DNA of 33,617 nucleotides from a virus: IMG/VR virus record IMGVR_UViG_3300043568_000201, positions 1-33,617 of that record, one strand, 5' to 3'. Every line of letters starts with the position of its first letter. The stretch's first letter is position 1. Of the stretch, positions 14,008-17,372 are shown piece by piece. The notes below the pieces were generated by a model. It saw nothing but the letters and a program-made list of their open reading frames with translations, did no database searches and had not been told where the DNA came from. The position numbers and the translations under genes are program-made.

Positions 14008-14778
14008 ATGAATTTTTACCCTTTTCACATAGGGGATTATTTGAGTCATACCTCCCATCTATCGGATGAGGAAGATCTGACTTACAGGCGCATGATTGAC
14101 CTTTATTACCAAACTGAAGAACCCTTTACTGATACGGCTAAATTGGCTCGTAAGGTCAGGTCTAGCTTTGAAATAGTGGGTAGTTTGCTCCATGAGTTCT
14201 TTGTTTTTGAAGATGGTGCTTGGCATAACAAACGAGCTGATGTGGAAATAGCCAAATACAAAGCTATGAAAGATGGGGGTCGCAAAGGCGCAGCATTAAG
14301 GTGGCATAAGGGTAGCGATAACTCCCCTAATACCCCCCCTATACCCCTCCCTAATCACTCCCTAATGCCAACCAAGAACCAAGAACCAAGAACCAAGAAC
14401 CAAATAAAAACTATACCCACTCCTAGCGGAGTGAGTGTTGATCTTTGGAATGATTTTTTGGTTTACAGGAAACGGCTCAAAGCTCCAGTAACGGATCGAG
14501 TGCTTGCAAGATTGGTCAAAGAGGCTGAACTAGCCAAAATGCCTTTGGATCAGGTCTTAGAAACCATCATTTTTAAGGGATGGAGATCATTTGAGGCTTC
14601 TTGGATCACTCAAACGGCTCAGAAAGCCTCAGAAATGCCTCTAGGAAGCGATAAACAGATTGAGGAGGCATACAGGGTCGAATGTGGCGCAGATCCTCGC
14701 CTAGCTCGTTTTAACAGCTATTACGAAATGAAGCAGTTCATCCTCAACCACAGAGATAAGAAAAGGCAAGCAGCATGA
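14008..14778 (+). CDS. DUF1376-type phage replication protein
   Basis: 256 residues. The N-terminus matches the DUF1376 family: NFYPFHIGDYLSHTSHLSDE (2-21), YRRMIDLYYQTEEPF and VGSLLHEFF, followed by GGRKGAALRWH. A Pro/Asn-rich linker (about residues 103-137) encodes the DNA repeats listed separately. The C-terminal part (LWNDFLVYRKRLKAPVTDRV, then FKGWRSFEASWI) resembles the tail of phage replication initiators. DUF1376 proteins sit at the place of lambda O in many phages. It follows the regulator by 2 nt and would be expressed early. Confidence 0.75.
   Translation: MNFYPFHIGDYLSHTSHLSDEEDLTYRRMIDLYYQTEEPFTDTAKLARKVRSSFEIVGSLLHEFFVFEDGAWHNKRADVEIAKYKAMKDGGRKGAALRWHKGSDNSPNTPPIPLPNHSLMPTKNQEPRTKNQIKTIPTPSGVSVDLWNDFLVYRKRLKAPVTDRVLARLVKEAELAKMPLDQVLETIIFKGWRSFEASWITQTAQKASEMPLGSDKQIEEAYRVECGADPRLARFNSYYEMKQFILNHRDKKRQAA
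14325..14402 (+). repeat. Heptamer repeats, candidate replication origin
   Basis: Three CCCTAAT heptamers (14325, 14349, 14360) in a C-rich tract are followed by 4.6 head-to-tail copies of ACCAAGA (14371-14402) and an A-rich stretch. All lie in the linker of the DUF1376 gene. Iterons inside the initiator gene are the lambda arrangement. No origin activity can be shown from sequence alone. Confidence 0.45.
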
Positions 14779-14927
14779 TCTATTTCATTTATGACGAAGA
14801 TGGGTTGATTCGCCAGGTCAAAAGCAGAACTGAGGCTCAATACCTTGTTTCGCTAAGACCTGATTGGAAGATTGTGGCTAAAAAGGTTAAAAAACCCATA
14901 TTTAAATTCGAGGAGGCTTTGTTTTGA
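14775..14927 (+). CDS. Small hypothetical protein (50 aa)
   Basis: ATG 14775 overlaps the stop of the DUF1376 gene (ATGA); TGA at 14925-14927 overlaps the TTG start of the methyltransferase. The 50-residue product has IYFIYDEDGLIRQV, then SLRPDWKIVAKKVKKP, a plausible small alpha/beta protein. Tight coupling on both sides supports translation. Function unknown. Confidence 0.6.
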   Translation: MIYFIYDEDGLIRQVKSRTEAQYLVSLRPDWKIVAKKVKKPIFKFEEALF

Positions 14928-15763
14928 ATGAGTTGGCTCTTTTCGCAGGTGCTGGTGGAGGAATACTTGGAGGACATTTGCTTGGATGGAGAACAGTATG
15001 CGCTGTTGAATGGGAAGCCTATCCAGCAAGCGTATTGCTCGCAAGACAAAATGATGGACTTTTGCCGAGTTTCCCAATTTGGGATGATGTTCAAACCTTT
15101 GATGGAAAGCCTTGGAGAGGAATTGTTGATGTTGTATCAGGAGGATTTCCATGCCAAGACATCTCAGCAGCAGGAAGGGGGGGGGGAATCGAGGCAGAAC
15201 GATCAGGAATGTGGAAAGAAATGGCGAGAATCATTGGCGAAGTTAGACCCAAATACGCTTTTGTGGAAAATTCCCCAATGCTCACTACTAGAGGACTTGG
15301 AACAGTCCTTAGAGATTTGGCCCAAATGGGGTTCGATGCGGAATGGGGAGTGCTTTCCGCAGCCGATGTTGGCGCAAATCACCATAGACAAAGAATTTGG
15401 ATTGTTGGAAAAAACACCAAACAATGTGAATTTTTTCCATACACCAAATACAACAGGAATAGATGGGGGAAGCAACAGCCGAAAAGCTCTGAAAAAAAGA
15501 ATATTTCCGACACCAAATGCGGAAGATTGGAAAAACAGAGGAAATTTGAGCAACCCATCAATCCAAAGAAGATTAGAAATTGGCAAACAAATTTCATTGA
15601 GTATGGTGGTTCATCCGACATCTGGAAATTTGAACCCAAATTGGACAGAGTGGTTGATGGGATGGCCGATAGGGTGGACAGACTTAAAGCCATTGGAAAT
15701 GGACAAGTTCCCCTTTGTGCAGCAACAGCATGGAATTTGCTCAGAAAACGAATAGATGAATGA
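14924..15763 (+). CDS. DNA (cytosine-5) methyltransferase
   Basis: 279 residues from TTG 14924, which lies 7 nt after GAGGAGG. All core C5-methyltransferase motifs are present in order: LFAGAGGGILGG (motif I, 6-17), GGFPCQDIS with catalytic Cys77 (IV), VENS with Glu115 (VI), RQRIWIVG (VIII, 155-162) and IGNGQVP (X, 257-263). The target-recognition region (about 165-235) is short. It would methylate cytosine in phage DNA, most likely against host restriction; no partner endonuclease is adjacent. A second frame, shifted by +1, is open over nearly the whole gene, and a run of ten G (15177-15186) lies just after motif IV. The reading given here needs exactly this number of G or one differing by three. 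Confidence 0.9.
   Translation: MNELALFAGAGGGILGGHLLGWRTVCAVEWEAYPASVLLARQNDGLLPSFPIWDDVQTFDGKPWRGIVDVVSGGFPCQDISAAGRGGGIEAERSGMWKEMARIIGEVRPKYAFVENSPMLTTRGLGTVLRDLAQMGFDAEWGVLSAADVGANHHRQRIWIVGKNTKQCEFFPYTKYNRNRWGKQQPKSSEKKNISDTKCGRLEKQRKFEQPINPKKIRNWQTNFIEYGGSSDIWKFEPKLDRVVDGMADRVDRLKAIGNGQVPLCAATAWNLLRKRIDE
14928..15755 (+). CDS. Second long frame fully overlapping the methyltransferase gene (+1)
   Basis: 275 codons without a stop from ATG 14928, 11 nt after the same GAGGAGG. The product starts MSWLFSQVLVEEYLED and has recognisable blocks: LLWKIPQCSLLEDLEQSLEI, PKWGSMRNGECF, RGNLSNPSIQRRLEIGKQ and, near the end, LNPNWTEWLMGWPIGWTDLK. I recall phage proteins in databases that begin MSWLFS and carry the WLMGWPIGWT block, annotated as methyltransferase-like; this could not be checked. 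Either the frame encodes a true second protein, or it is kept open because both frames are under constraint in this family, or it is reached by frameshifting. Trp-rich composition is unlike neighbouring proteins. Confidence 0.45.
   Translation: MSWLFSQVLVEEYLEDICLDGEQYALLNGKPIQQAYCSQDKMMDFCRVSQFGMMFKPLMESLGEELLMLYQEDFHAKTSQQQEGGGESRQNDQECGKKWRESLAKLDPNTLLWKIPQCSLLEDLEQSLEIWPKWGSMRNGECFPQPMLAQITIDKEFGLLEKTPNNVNFFHTPNTTGIDGGSNSRKALKKRIFPTPNAEDWKNRGNLSNPSIQRRLEIGKQISLSMVVHPTSGNLNPNWTEWLMGWPIGWTDLKPLEMDKFPFVQQQHGICSENE
15177..15186 (+). repeat. G10 homopolymer inside the methyltransferase overlap
   Basis: Ten consecutive G in an AT-rich genome, encoding part of Gly-rich residues 85-88 just after catalytic motif IV. 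Loss of one G would join the methyltransferase N-terminus to the +1 frame; gain of one G would join the N-terminus of the +1 frame to the methyltransferase C-terminus. The tract could be a slippage site or partly a sequencing error. Confidence 0.8.
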
Positions 15764-15941: not shown

Positions 15942-16270
15942 ACTTAAATCAACTAAATGAGAACCGAGTAGAGGAGGCTTTAATAAAGCTGTCTATGTCA
16001 GATGAGAACCATGCTCGCTGGTATGGTGAGCTGAAATTTCTTGAGGAAGGTCTAAAACAAGCTGAAAGTCATGCCTTTTTACTTGCGGAAGGAACAGTAG
16101 CTGAAAGAACAGCCATAGCCAAATCTAGCGAAACTTACGCAAAAGCGGTCAAAGCATGGACTGATGCGCTGACAAATTACAAAAAAATAGACAATGAGCG
16201 AAATCATGAGATCCGAATCATTGAGATTTGGAGAACTTTGTCAAGCAACAGAAGGCAGGGAAATATATGA
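15938..16270 (+). CDS. Helical hypothetical protein
   Basis: 110 residues from ATG 15938, chosen because AAGGAG lies 7 nt upstream; the ATG at 15932 is too close to it. The protein is helical and charged (KFLEEGLKQAESHAFLLAEG, SSETYAKAVKAWTDAL). No enzyme motif. The stop is in an ATGA overlap with the TGT/DpdA-like gene. Confidence 0.6.
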   Translation: MNLNQLNENRVEEALIKLSMSDENHARWYGELKFLEEGLKQAESHAFLLAEGTVAERTAIAKSSETYAKAVKAWTDALTNYKKIDNERNHEIRIIEIWRTLSSNRRQGNI

Positions 16271-17004
16271 TTCATTATCATGGGCTTCCTATAACTCCTA
16301 CTACAGTTGCTAATTATGCGGTGCAAGCTGGTCATGCTTTTGTTTCGTTTGCACATTCTGACCAAGTGGGAACAGCGATTGATCTAGCTCAATCTTTTGC
16401 TTTAGACAATGGTGCTTTTAGTGCTTGGAAGTCAGGAAAACCAGTTAAAGATTGGACTGATTTTTATGATTGGGCCTTAAATCTTAAAAAAGTTCCATCT
16501 TGTGATTTCGCTGTTATTCCTGATGTTATTGATGGAACAGAAGATGACAATGATGCCTTATTAAAAGATTGCCCTTTGCCGTATTGGTTTGGTTCTCCAG
16601 TTTGGCATTTGCATGAATCCTTAGAAAGACTTGAGCAGTTAGCAAATACCTATGTTCGTGTTTGTTTAGGAAGTTCAGGAGAATATTCCACAGTTGGTAG
16701 CAATATTTGGTGGGCTAGGATGGGAGCTGCTATGAGAGTTGTATGTGATGACATGGGAAGGCCAATCTGTAAGTTGCATGGTCTTAGGATGCTCGATCCT
16801 GGCATTTTTACTAAATTTCCTTTTAGTTCAACAGACAGCACCAATATAGGAAGAAATGTAGGAATTGATAAACATTGGAAAAACGGAAATTACCCTCCTC
16901 CAACTAAAGAAGCTAGAGCGCAAGTAATGAGAGCAAGAATTGAAGCTCACAATGCTCCTGCTACTTGGAATTTTGTGCAAATTGAACAGGAAGGATTATT
17001 TTGA
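16267..17004 (+). CDS. TGT/DpdA-like TIM-barrel enzyme (putative 7-deazaguanine transglycosylase)
   Basis: 245 residues from ATG 16267, with AGGG upstream and ATGA overlap. Motifs that recall the tRNA-guanine transglycosylase/DpdA superfamily are LDNGAFSAW (46-54), CDFAVIPDVIDG (79-90, possible catalytic Asp), GSPVWHLHE (109-117), RVCLGSSG (131-138), KLHGLRML (169-176) and SSTDSTNIGRN (187-197). TGT swaps guanine for preQ1 in tRNA; DpdA does so with preQ0 in DNA. The usual TGT zinc motif is not evident, which fits short phage DpdA-like forms better than true TGT. It is followed directly by a QueD-like gene, which supports a 7-deazaguanine role. The assignment needs structure comparison. Confidence 0.55.
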   Translation: MIHYHGLPITPTTVANYAVQAGHAFVSFAHSDQVGTAIDLAQSFALDNGAFSAWKSGKPVKDWTDFYDWALNLKKVPSCDFAVIPDVIDGTEDDNDALLKDCPLPYWFGSPVWHLHESLERLEQLANTYVRVCLGSSGEYSTVGSNIWWARMGAAMRVVCDDMGRPICKLHGLRMLDPGIFTKFPFSSTDSTNIGRNVGIDKHWKNGNYPPPTKEARAQVMRARIEAHNAPATWNFVQIEQEGLF

Positions 17005-17372
17005 AACTTACTCAAACTTTCTTTTTTGATGCAGCTCATACCCTTGATAGAACAGTAAATGTTTATGACCATTTAAAGTCTAAAAATATTCATGGTCATA
17101 CCTATCATGCAAGTATTTCGATTCAAGGAAAGCTAGGAGAAAACGGCATGATTAGAGATTTTGGAGATATTAAACATTCTGTAGATGCCATTAAATATGC
17201 TTTGGATCATGAATTTCTTAACAATGTTCCTGATCTTGGTATCCCTACTTTAGAAAATTTATGTCTTTTTATTGCAAAAAGGCTGCATAACATTGATGGT
17301 CTTTGTGAAGTTTCAGTTGAACGAAAAGCATCAGGCGATAAATGCACTTTAATTATTGAAGGAAATATATGA
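17001..17372 (+). CDS. QueD/6-pyruvoyltetrahydropterin synthase-like protein
   Basis: 123 residues from a TTG start 5 nt after AAGGA. QueD makes carboxytetrahydropterin on the way to preQ0. Family residues seen are FDAAH (9-13, His13), HGHTYH (31-36, zinc His31 and His33), RDFGDIK (52-58), LDHEFLNN (68-75, His70), PTLENL and Glu107. The catalytic Cys normally four residues before HGH is replaced by Ser27, so activity may be altered. The coding region overlaps the DpdA-like gene by 4 nt, so they form one unit. Confidence 0.75.
   Translation: MKLTQTFFFDAAHTLDRTVNVYDHLKSKNIHGHTYHASISIQGKLGENGMIRDFGDIKHSVDAIKYALDHEFLNNVPDLGIPTLENLCLFIAKRLHNIDGLCEVSVERKASGDKCTLIIEGNI

Follow-up and report, generated by a model that had tools for sequence, protein, structure and literature searches.

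Two overlapping genes in one phage methyltransferase locus: dual coding and a likely split enzyme

How can one stretch of viral DNA hold two long proteins in different reading frames, and what would the second do for the first? The question is raised by an IMG/VR virus record of 33,617 bases, analysed over its whole length (G000, hereafter the window), in which a C5-cytosine methyltransferase gene, alpha, is overlapped almost from end to end by a second open frame, beta, in the +1 register.

Layout of the locus

An earlier note on this DNA had described two open frames of 279 and 275 codons, overlapping over 828 nt, offset by 4 nt and placed behind a shared ribosome site, and all of these coordinates are confirmed. 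The beta ATG lies 4 nt downstream of the alpha TTG, and the Shine-Dalgarno-like GAGGAGG is separated from the first by 11 nt and from the second by 7 nt. The features of the locus are as follows, the Shine-Dalgarno-like site and the alpha motifs being read from the sequence:

14775-14927, + strand: 50-aa open reading frame upstream of alpha; its TGA stop overlaps the alpha start as TTGA
14910-14916, + strand: Shine-Dalgarno-like GAGGAGG, common to both starts
14924-15763, + strand: alpha, 279 aa, TTG start; C5-cytosine methyltransferase catalytic subunit
14928-15755, + strand: beta, 275 aa, ATG start, +1 frame; probable subunit for the target recognition domain (TRD) and motif IX
14939-14962, + strand: alpha motif I, LFAGAGGG
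15140-15166, + strand: alpha motif IV with the catalytic PCQ, GGFPCQDIS
15177-15186, + strand: run of ten G, inside both frames; possible slippage site
15254-15274, + strand: alpha motif VI, ENS
15380-15406, + strand: alpha motif VIII, HHRQRIWIV
15504-15533, + strand: beta PTP module, FPTPNAEDWK; resembles a TL motif, about 40 aa ahead of the motif IX-like block
15630-15683, + strand: beta motif IX-like block, LNPNWTEWLMGWPIGWTD; a match in register, statistically not significant
15680-15712, + strand: alpha motif X, RLKAIGNGQVP

Because the TGA of the 50-aa frame overlaps the alpha start, translational coupling between the two is possible. Read along the DNA and across the two frames, the order is motifs I-VIII, a variable region, the motif IX-like block and motif X. 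The Trp-rich block that the earlier note set opposite motif X is indeed present, though it is placed immediately 5' of that motif, with a 4-nt overlap. The ten-G run is the only run of G or C above 7 in the window. Elsewhere in the window, at 16228-17372, lie a queuine tRNA-ribosyltransferase-like gene (PHROG 887, E=1e-70) and then a QueD-like gene; beside a methyltransferase, they possibly belong to a 7-deazaguanine DNA modification pathway.

Selection on both reading frames

Synonymous shuffles and fourfold divergence rule out a chance open frame. When the codons of the window's alpha are shuffled so that enzyme sequence and codon usage are preserved, the +1 frame acquires a mean of 4.5 stops, and none of 300 shuffles is stop-free. 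Across 75 homologues the beta frame contains no stop at all, where synonymous shuffles of alpha lead one to expect about 4.8 in each sequence. The IMG/VR scan gives 80 loci, and in almost all of them the two frames run uninterrupted over their full length. The 4-nt offset between the alpha and beta starts is kept in 78 of the 79 homologous pairs that could be measured (IMG/VR loci, the window and four phage records), mostly in the context RTGAATGAGY, and most GTDB prophage loci have the same offset and open frames too. At five loci (L010, L066, L096, L099 and L105) the position of the alpha start reads TTA, a non-start codon, and the beta ATG is retained.

Fourfold sites diverge by 12-24% within the overlap, whereas in flanking genes that align well the figure is 31-83% (Fisher p from 4e-4 to 2e-7); the overlap of a distant homologue (L022) reaches 26%. 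Within the overlap, third codon positions change only slightly more than first positions. Methyltransferases without beta show a fourfold divergence of 58-72% and +1 stops at the expected number. The test of synonymous change among homologues that the earlier note proposed was thus run, and dual coding passed it: stops in the +1 frame with normal synonymous variation in the enzyme, the pattern that counts against it, are not found, and synonymous change in the enzyme frame is strongly reduced. The overlap is true dual coding, with purifying selection on both frames.

This selection is unevenly shared. Opposite alpha motifs I-VIII both proteins are conserved, alpha (identity 0.76-0.92) more than beta (0.60-0.77). 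At beta 158-230, identity is 0.24-0.34 in alpha and 0.43-0.48 in beta, where the third codon positions of beta are the most changeable; conservation of both proteins returns at beta 231-268, with identities of 0.74 and 0.73. The constraint can thus be seen to pass from both frames to beta alone, and then back to both. Alpha is essentially unconstrained in the middle segment, where only beta is selected, and this stretch of alpha is the expected position of the target recognition domain.

Could the +1 frame still be a by-product that codes for nothing and merely reflects the conserved enzyme and its codon bias? Conservation of alpha is by itself enough to give some similarity to beta, and for this reason beta-profile scores were compared with those of shuffled versions. 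Shuffled alpha genes do retain part of the score (null means 0.6-153 bits), so the similarity is partly passive. Yet in each of 25 diverse loci the observed score is above that of every one of the 60 shuffles; phage 5093 exceeds its shuffles narrowly (29 versus a maximum of 27 bits). Passive similarity is therefore real but insufficient as a full account of beta. The absence of stops, the suppressed fourfold change and the beta-only constraint in the variable region also speak against a by-product, to which we give almost no credence.

A catalytic frame without motif IX, and its partner

Alpha carries motifs I, IV (PCQ), VI (ENV/ENS), VIII and X of C5-cytosine methyltransferases, and it matches PHROG 363 (E=4e-64) and PF00145 (E=2e-32). 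It had been credited with all core motifs, which proves too generous: motif IX is not visible in alpha, the PF00145 match covers only residues 4-226 and stops ahead of that motif, and the alignment with HhaI reaches residues 4-183, i.e. motifs I-VIII alone. Motif IX and a target recognition domain are thus not found together in the alpha chain. In the AlphaFold model of alpha the catalytic core is confident and residues 176-251, in the stretch that alpha does not conserve, are disordered (models were built from window, IMG/VR and GTDB rows only); Foldseek finds that the core resembles M.HaeIII (E=1.6e-11). In ten host genomes, picked because they hold a beta and containing a few near-duplicate loci, so that the counts are not fully independent, 13 of 13 full-length PF00145 methyltransferases are without beta, and all 14 of those whose match ends before the TRD and motif IX have a +1 beta.

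Beta matches PHROG 1008 (E=7e-25) and PHROG 26627 (E=1e-13), and sequence searches of Pfam, NCBIfam and PDB return no significant match to it. Its AlphaFold model, built for beta alone, is poor (pLDDT 53) and has no PDB match. Residues 235-252 (LNPNWTEWLMGWPIGWTD) are spaced like motif IX of normal enzymes (LTPRECARLMGF), and the best local profile alignment between beta and normal methyltransferases falls on motif IX in register, at a level that is not significant (hhalign P=0.57). Alpha-beta-alpha chimeras score no better against the normal-enzyme profile than shuffled segments do, and their Pfam match likewise ends ahead of motif IX. PTP modules, of which there are one to four per beta protein and more in longer betas, precede the motif IX-like block in 74 of 76 beta proteins versus 7% of shuffles; the strict TL pattern is satisfied by only 2 of 76 beta homologues. 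Beta probably carries target recognition and motif IX.

We consider it likely that the locus encodes a split, heterodimeric two-subunit C5 methyltransferase of the M.EcoHK31I type, with target recognition and motif IX in beta. One ribosome site would serve two starts 4 nt apart on one message. The alpha frame would give the catalytic subunit, with SAM binding, the catalytic PCQ, ENS and motifs VIII and X, and the +1 frame would give a partner supplying the target-recognition region and the motif IX that is absent from alpha. We infer that the two would then assemble and methylate phage DNA, protection from host restriction being the simplest role.

The same partner could be a true overlapping gene with another job, encoding an accessory, regulatory or anti-restriction protein instead of a recognition subunit. 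In streptococcal phages a constrained beta-core frame faces a complete methyltransferase: in MM1, fourfold changes amount to 10/48 opposite the +1 frame ORF14 and 23/44 elsewhere (p=0.002). Since the beta-core frames of MM1 and 5093 lie opposite methyltransferases that have their own motif IX, the beta core must do something besides supplying this motif, and no known fold or Pfam family resembles beta at a significant level. Against a non-recognition role, alpha is without motif IX wherever a long beta is present in the sampled genomes, and the variable region with its PTP modules sits where the TRD belongs. Moreover, beta is found away from alpha only as a few broken, partial or edge-of-alignment matches, the same being true of the one match outside the +1 register (L135), and among all the loci gathered none convincingly has beta alone or in frame with a methyltransferase core. 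We regard a non-recognition beta as unlikely.

The order of the motifs allows another reading, in which frameshifting or slippage yields a single enzyme that passes from alpha into the beta frame for the TRD and motif IX and returns to alpha for motif X. The sequence I-VIII, variable region, IX-like block and X is preserved across the two frames, and G-runs of 7-11 recur near beta codon 84, some also at about codon 199. In five IMG/VR or GTDB homologues (L038, L046, L048, L059 and L133) the frames are exchanged at or next to such a run, and in L048 a one-G change at the position of the window's ten-G site swaps them; these exchanges may reflect slippage, phase variation or assembly error. Such an enzyme would however depend on shifting twice, once in each direction, G-runs are absent from most homologues, and in beta both the N-terminus and an ATG of its own are conserved, all of which make it very unlikely. 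L038, L046 and L059 show the parts of the locus naturally rearranged: past the G-run, motifs I-VIII are joined in frame to the motif IX-like block, and motif X falls in the third frame.

Returning to the split two-subunit enzyme, the conserved DNA order suggests how it may have arisen, namely by a move of a normal enzyme's recognition segment into the +1 frame in place. A broader picture can be proposed, tentatively and at somewhat less than even confidence: the recognition half moved in place to +1, each frame is constrained where the other is free, beta forms a large and mostly unannotated family of phages, prophages and plasmids, and slippage at G-runs might switch beta on and off.

Breadth of the family and comparison with known systems

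Searches with the beta profile find it in at least 24 of 398 genomes of one phylum and at least 18 of 295 of one family, both minimum figures with 6-8 candidates scored per genome. Among 253 beta matches, 252 are in the +1 register to an overlapping alpha, with 216 loci having a beta match; they include Mycobacterium, Bacteroides, Nostoc, Paenibacillus and enterobacterial elements. In E. coli strains the relatives lie within prophages and are annotated as a single gene. By tblastn, matches spanning 95% or more of beta occur in phages of Acinetobacter, Salmonella, Pseudomonas, Klebsiella, Vibrio and Microcystis. In the Microcystis phage Mel-JY01, an annotated PD-(D/E)XK nuclease gene directly follows the alpha/beta locus (L086, 2363-3259) and is a possible restriction partner.

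Phages and prophages thus carry the alpha/beta arrangement widely, for the most part under the annotation of a single gene, and many of their “solo” cytosine methyltransferases may amount to half an enzyme whose partner is concealed in +1. This has consequences for methylome prediction, for the cloning of phage methyltransferases and for gene calling, and recoding or codon-optimising alpha would destroy beta. The locus also offers long dual coding in a compact, natural form, and because the passage of constraint between frames is visible in it, models of overlapping-gene evolution become testable on hundreds of homologues. The local finding is explained; it is the generality of the arrangement and the role of beta that make it of interest.

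In M.EcoHK31I the beta gene is nested in alpha in a different frame, and the window likewise has two genes overlapping in different frames. M.EcoHK31I is a two-polypeptide YGGCCR C5 methyltransferase (Lee, Kam and Shaw 1995, cited in PMC3404938); as described in PMC3404938, its large subunit contains motifs I-VIII and X, only motif IX is in the small one, and the predicted TRD is assigned to the large subunit. Like that large subunit, alpha has motifs I-VIII and X without motif IX. Unlike in M.EcoHK31I, beta starts only 4 nt after alpha and covers nearly all of it, and selection in the variable region, which acts on the beta frame alone, places target recognition in beta. The comparison is with the published description of M.EcoHK31I. 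M.AquI, also described in PMC3404938, is another naturally split C5 methyltransferase, as the window's enzyme would be, and its small subunit carries motif IX.

The earlier note held dual coding of this extent to be rare in DNA phages. Instead, hundreds of methyltransferase loci from phages and prophages share the arrangement, and comparable overlaps had already been published or annotated for phages of streptococci and of Paenibacillus. In S. thermophilus phages of the 5093 group, C5 methyltransferase genes overlap totally in different frames (PMC5601072), a paper which cites phage MM1 and a streptococcal transposon for such an overlap; one record of Streptococcus phage MM1 calls the products alpha and beta subunits. 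At both the MM1 locus (L232, 7480-8637) and the 5093 locus (L231, 6067-7026) a homologous +1 beta protein lies opposite the phage methyltransferase, with beta-profile matches to MM1 ORF14 (E=2e-14) and to the 5093 +1 frame (E=2e-10). These frames match about beta positions 57-160 (64-157 for ORF14). Unlike in the window, the streptococcal alpha is a full enzyme that includes motif IX (PF00145 1-321), and the streptococcal beta is only about 141 aa long, without the C-terminal region. The beta core seems to have accompanied C5 methyltransferases for a long time, and to this core the window's long beta seems to add a C-terminal region where alpha lacks one. In Paenibacillus phage Shelly, gp56 (the “g55 internal gene” of the gp55/gp56 pair) is also in +1 and matches beta 60-246, but it starts 184 nt inside alpha and not at a shared start.

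Mycobacteriophage methylases, too, can conceal a second protein in a different frame, the out-of-frame HNH endonuclease of ShiLan (PMC11855218). Unlike beta, this is a homing insertion, in the third frame and in some phages only, whereas beta extends along the enzyme and contains no recognised HNH domain. The window locus is therefore not unprecedented, as the two-polypeptide M.EcoHK31I and the published streptococcal phage overlaps precede it. What is new is that the overlap is nearly complete and its starts are coupled, that constraint is handed over between the frames, and that the hidden beta family is so broad.
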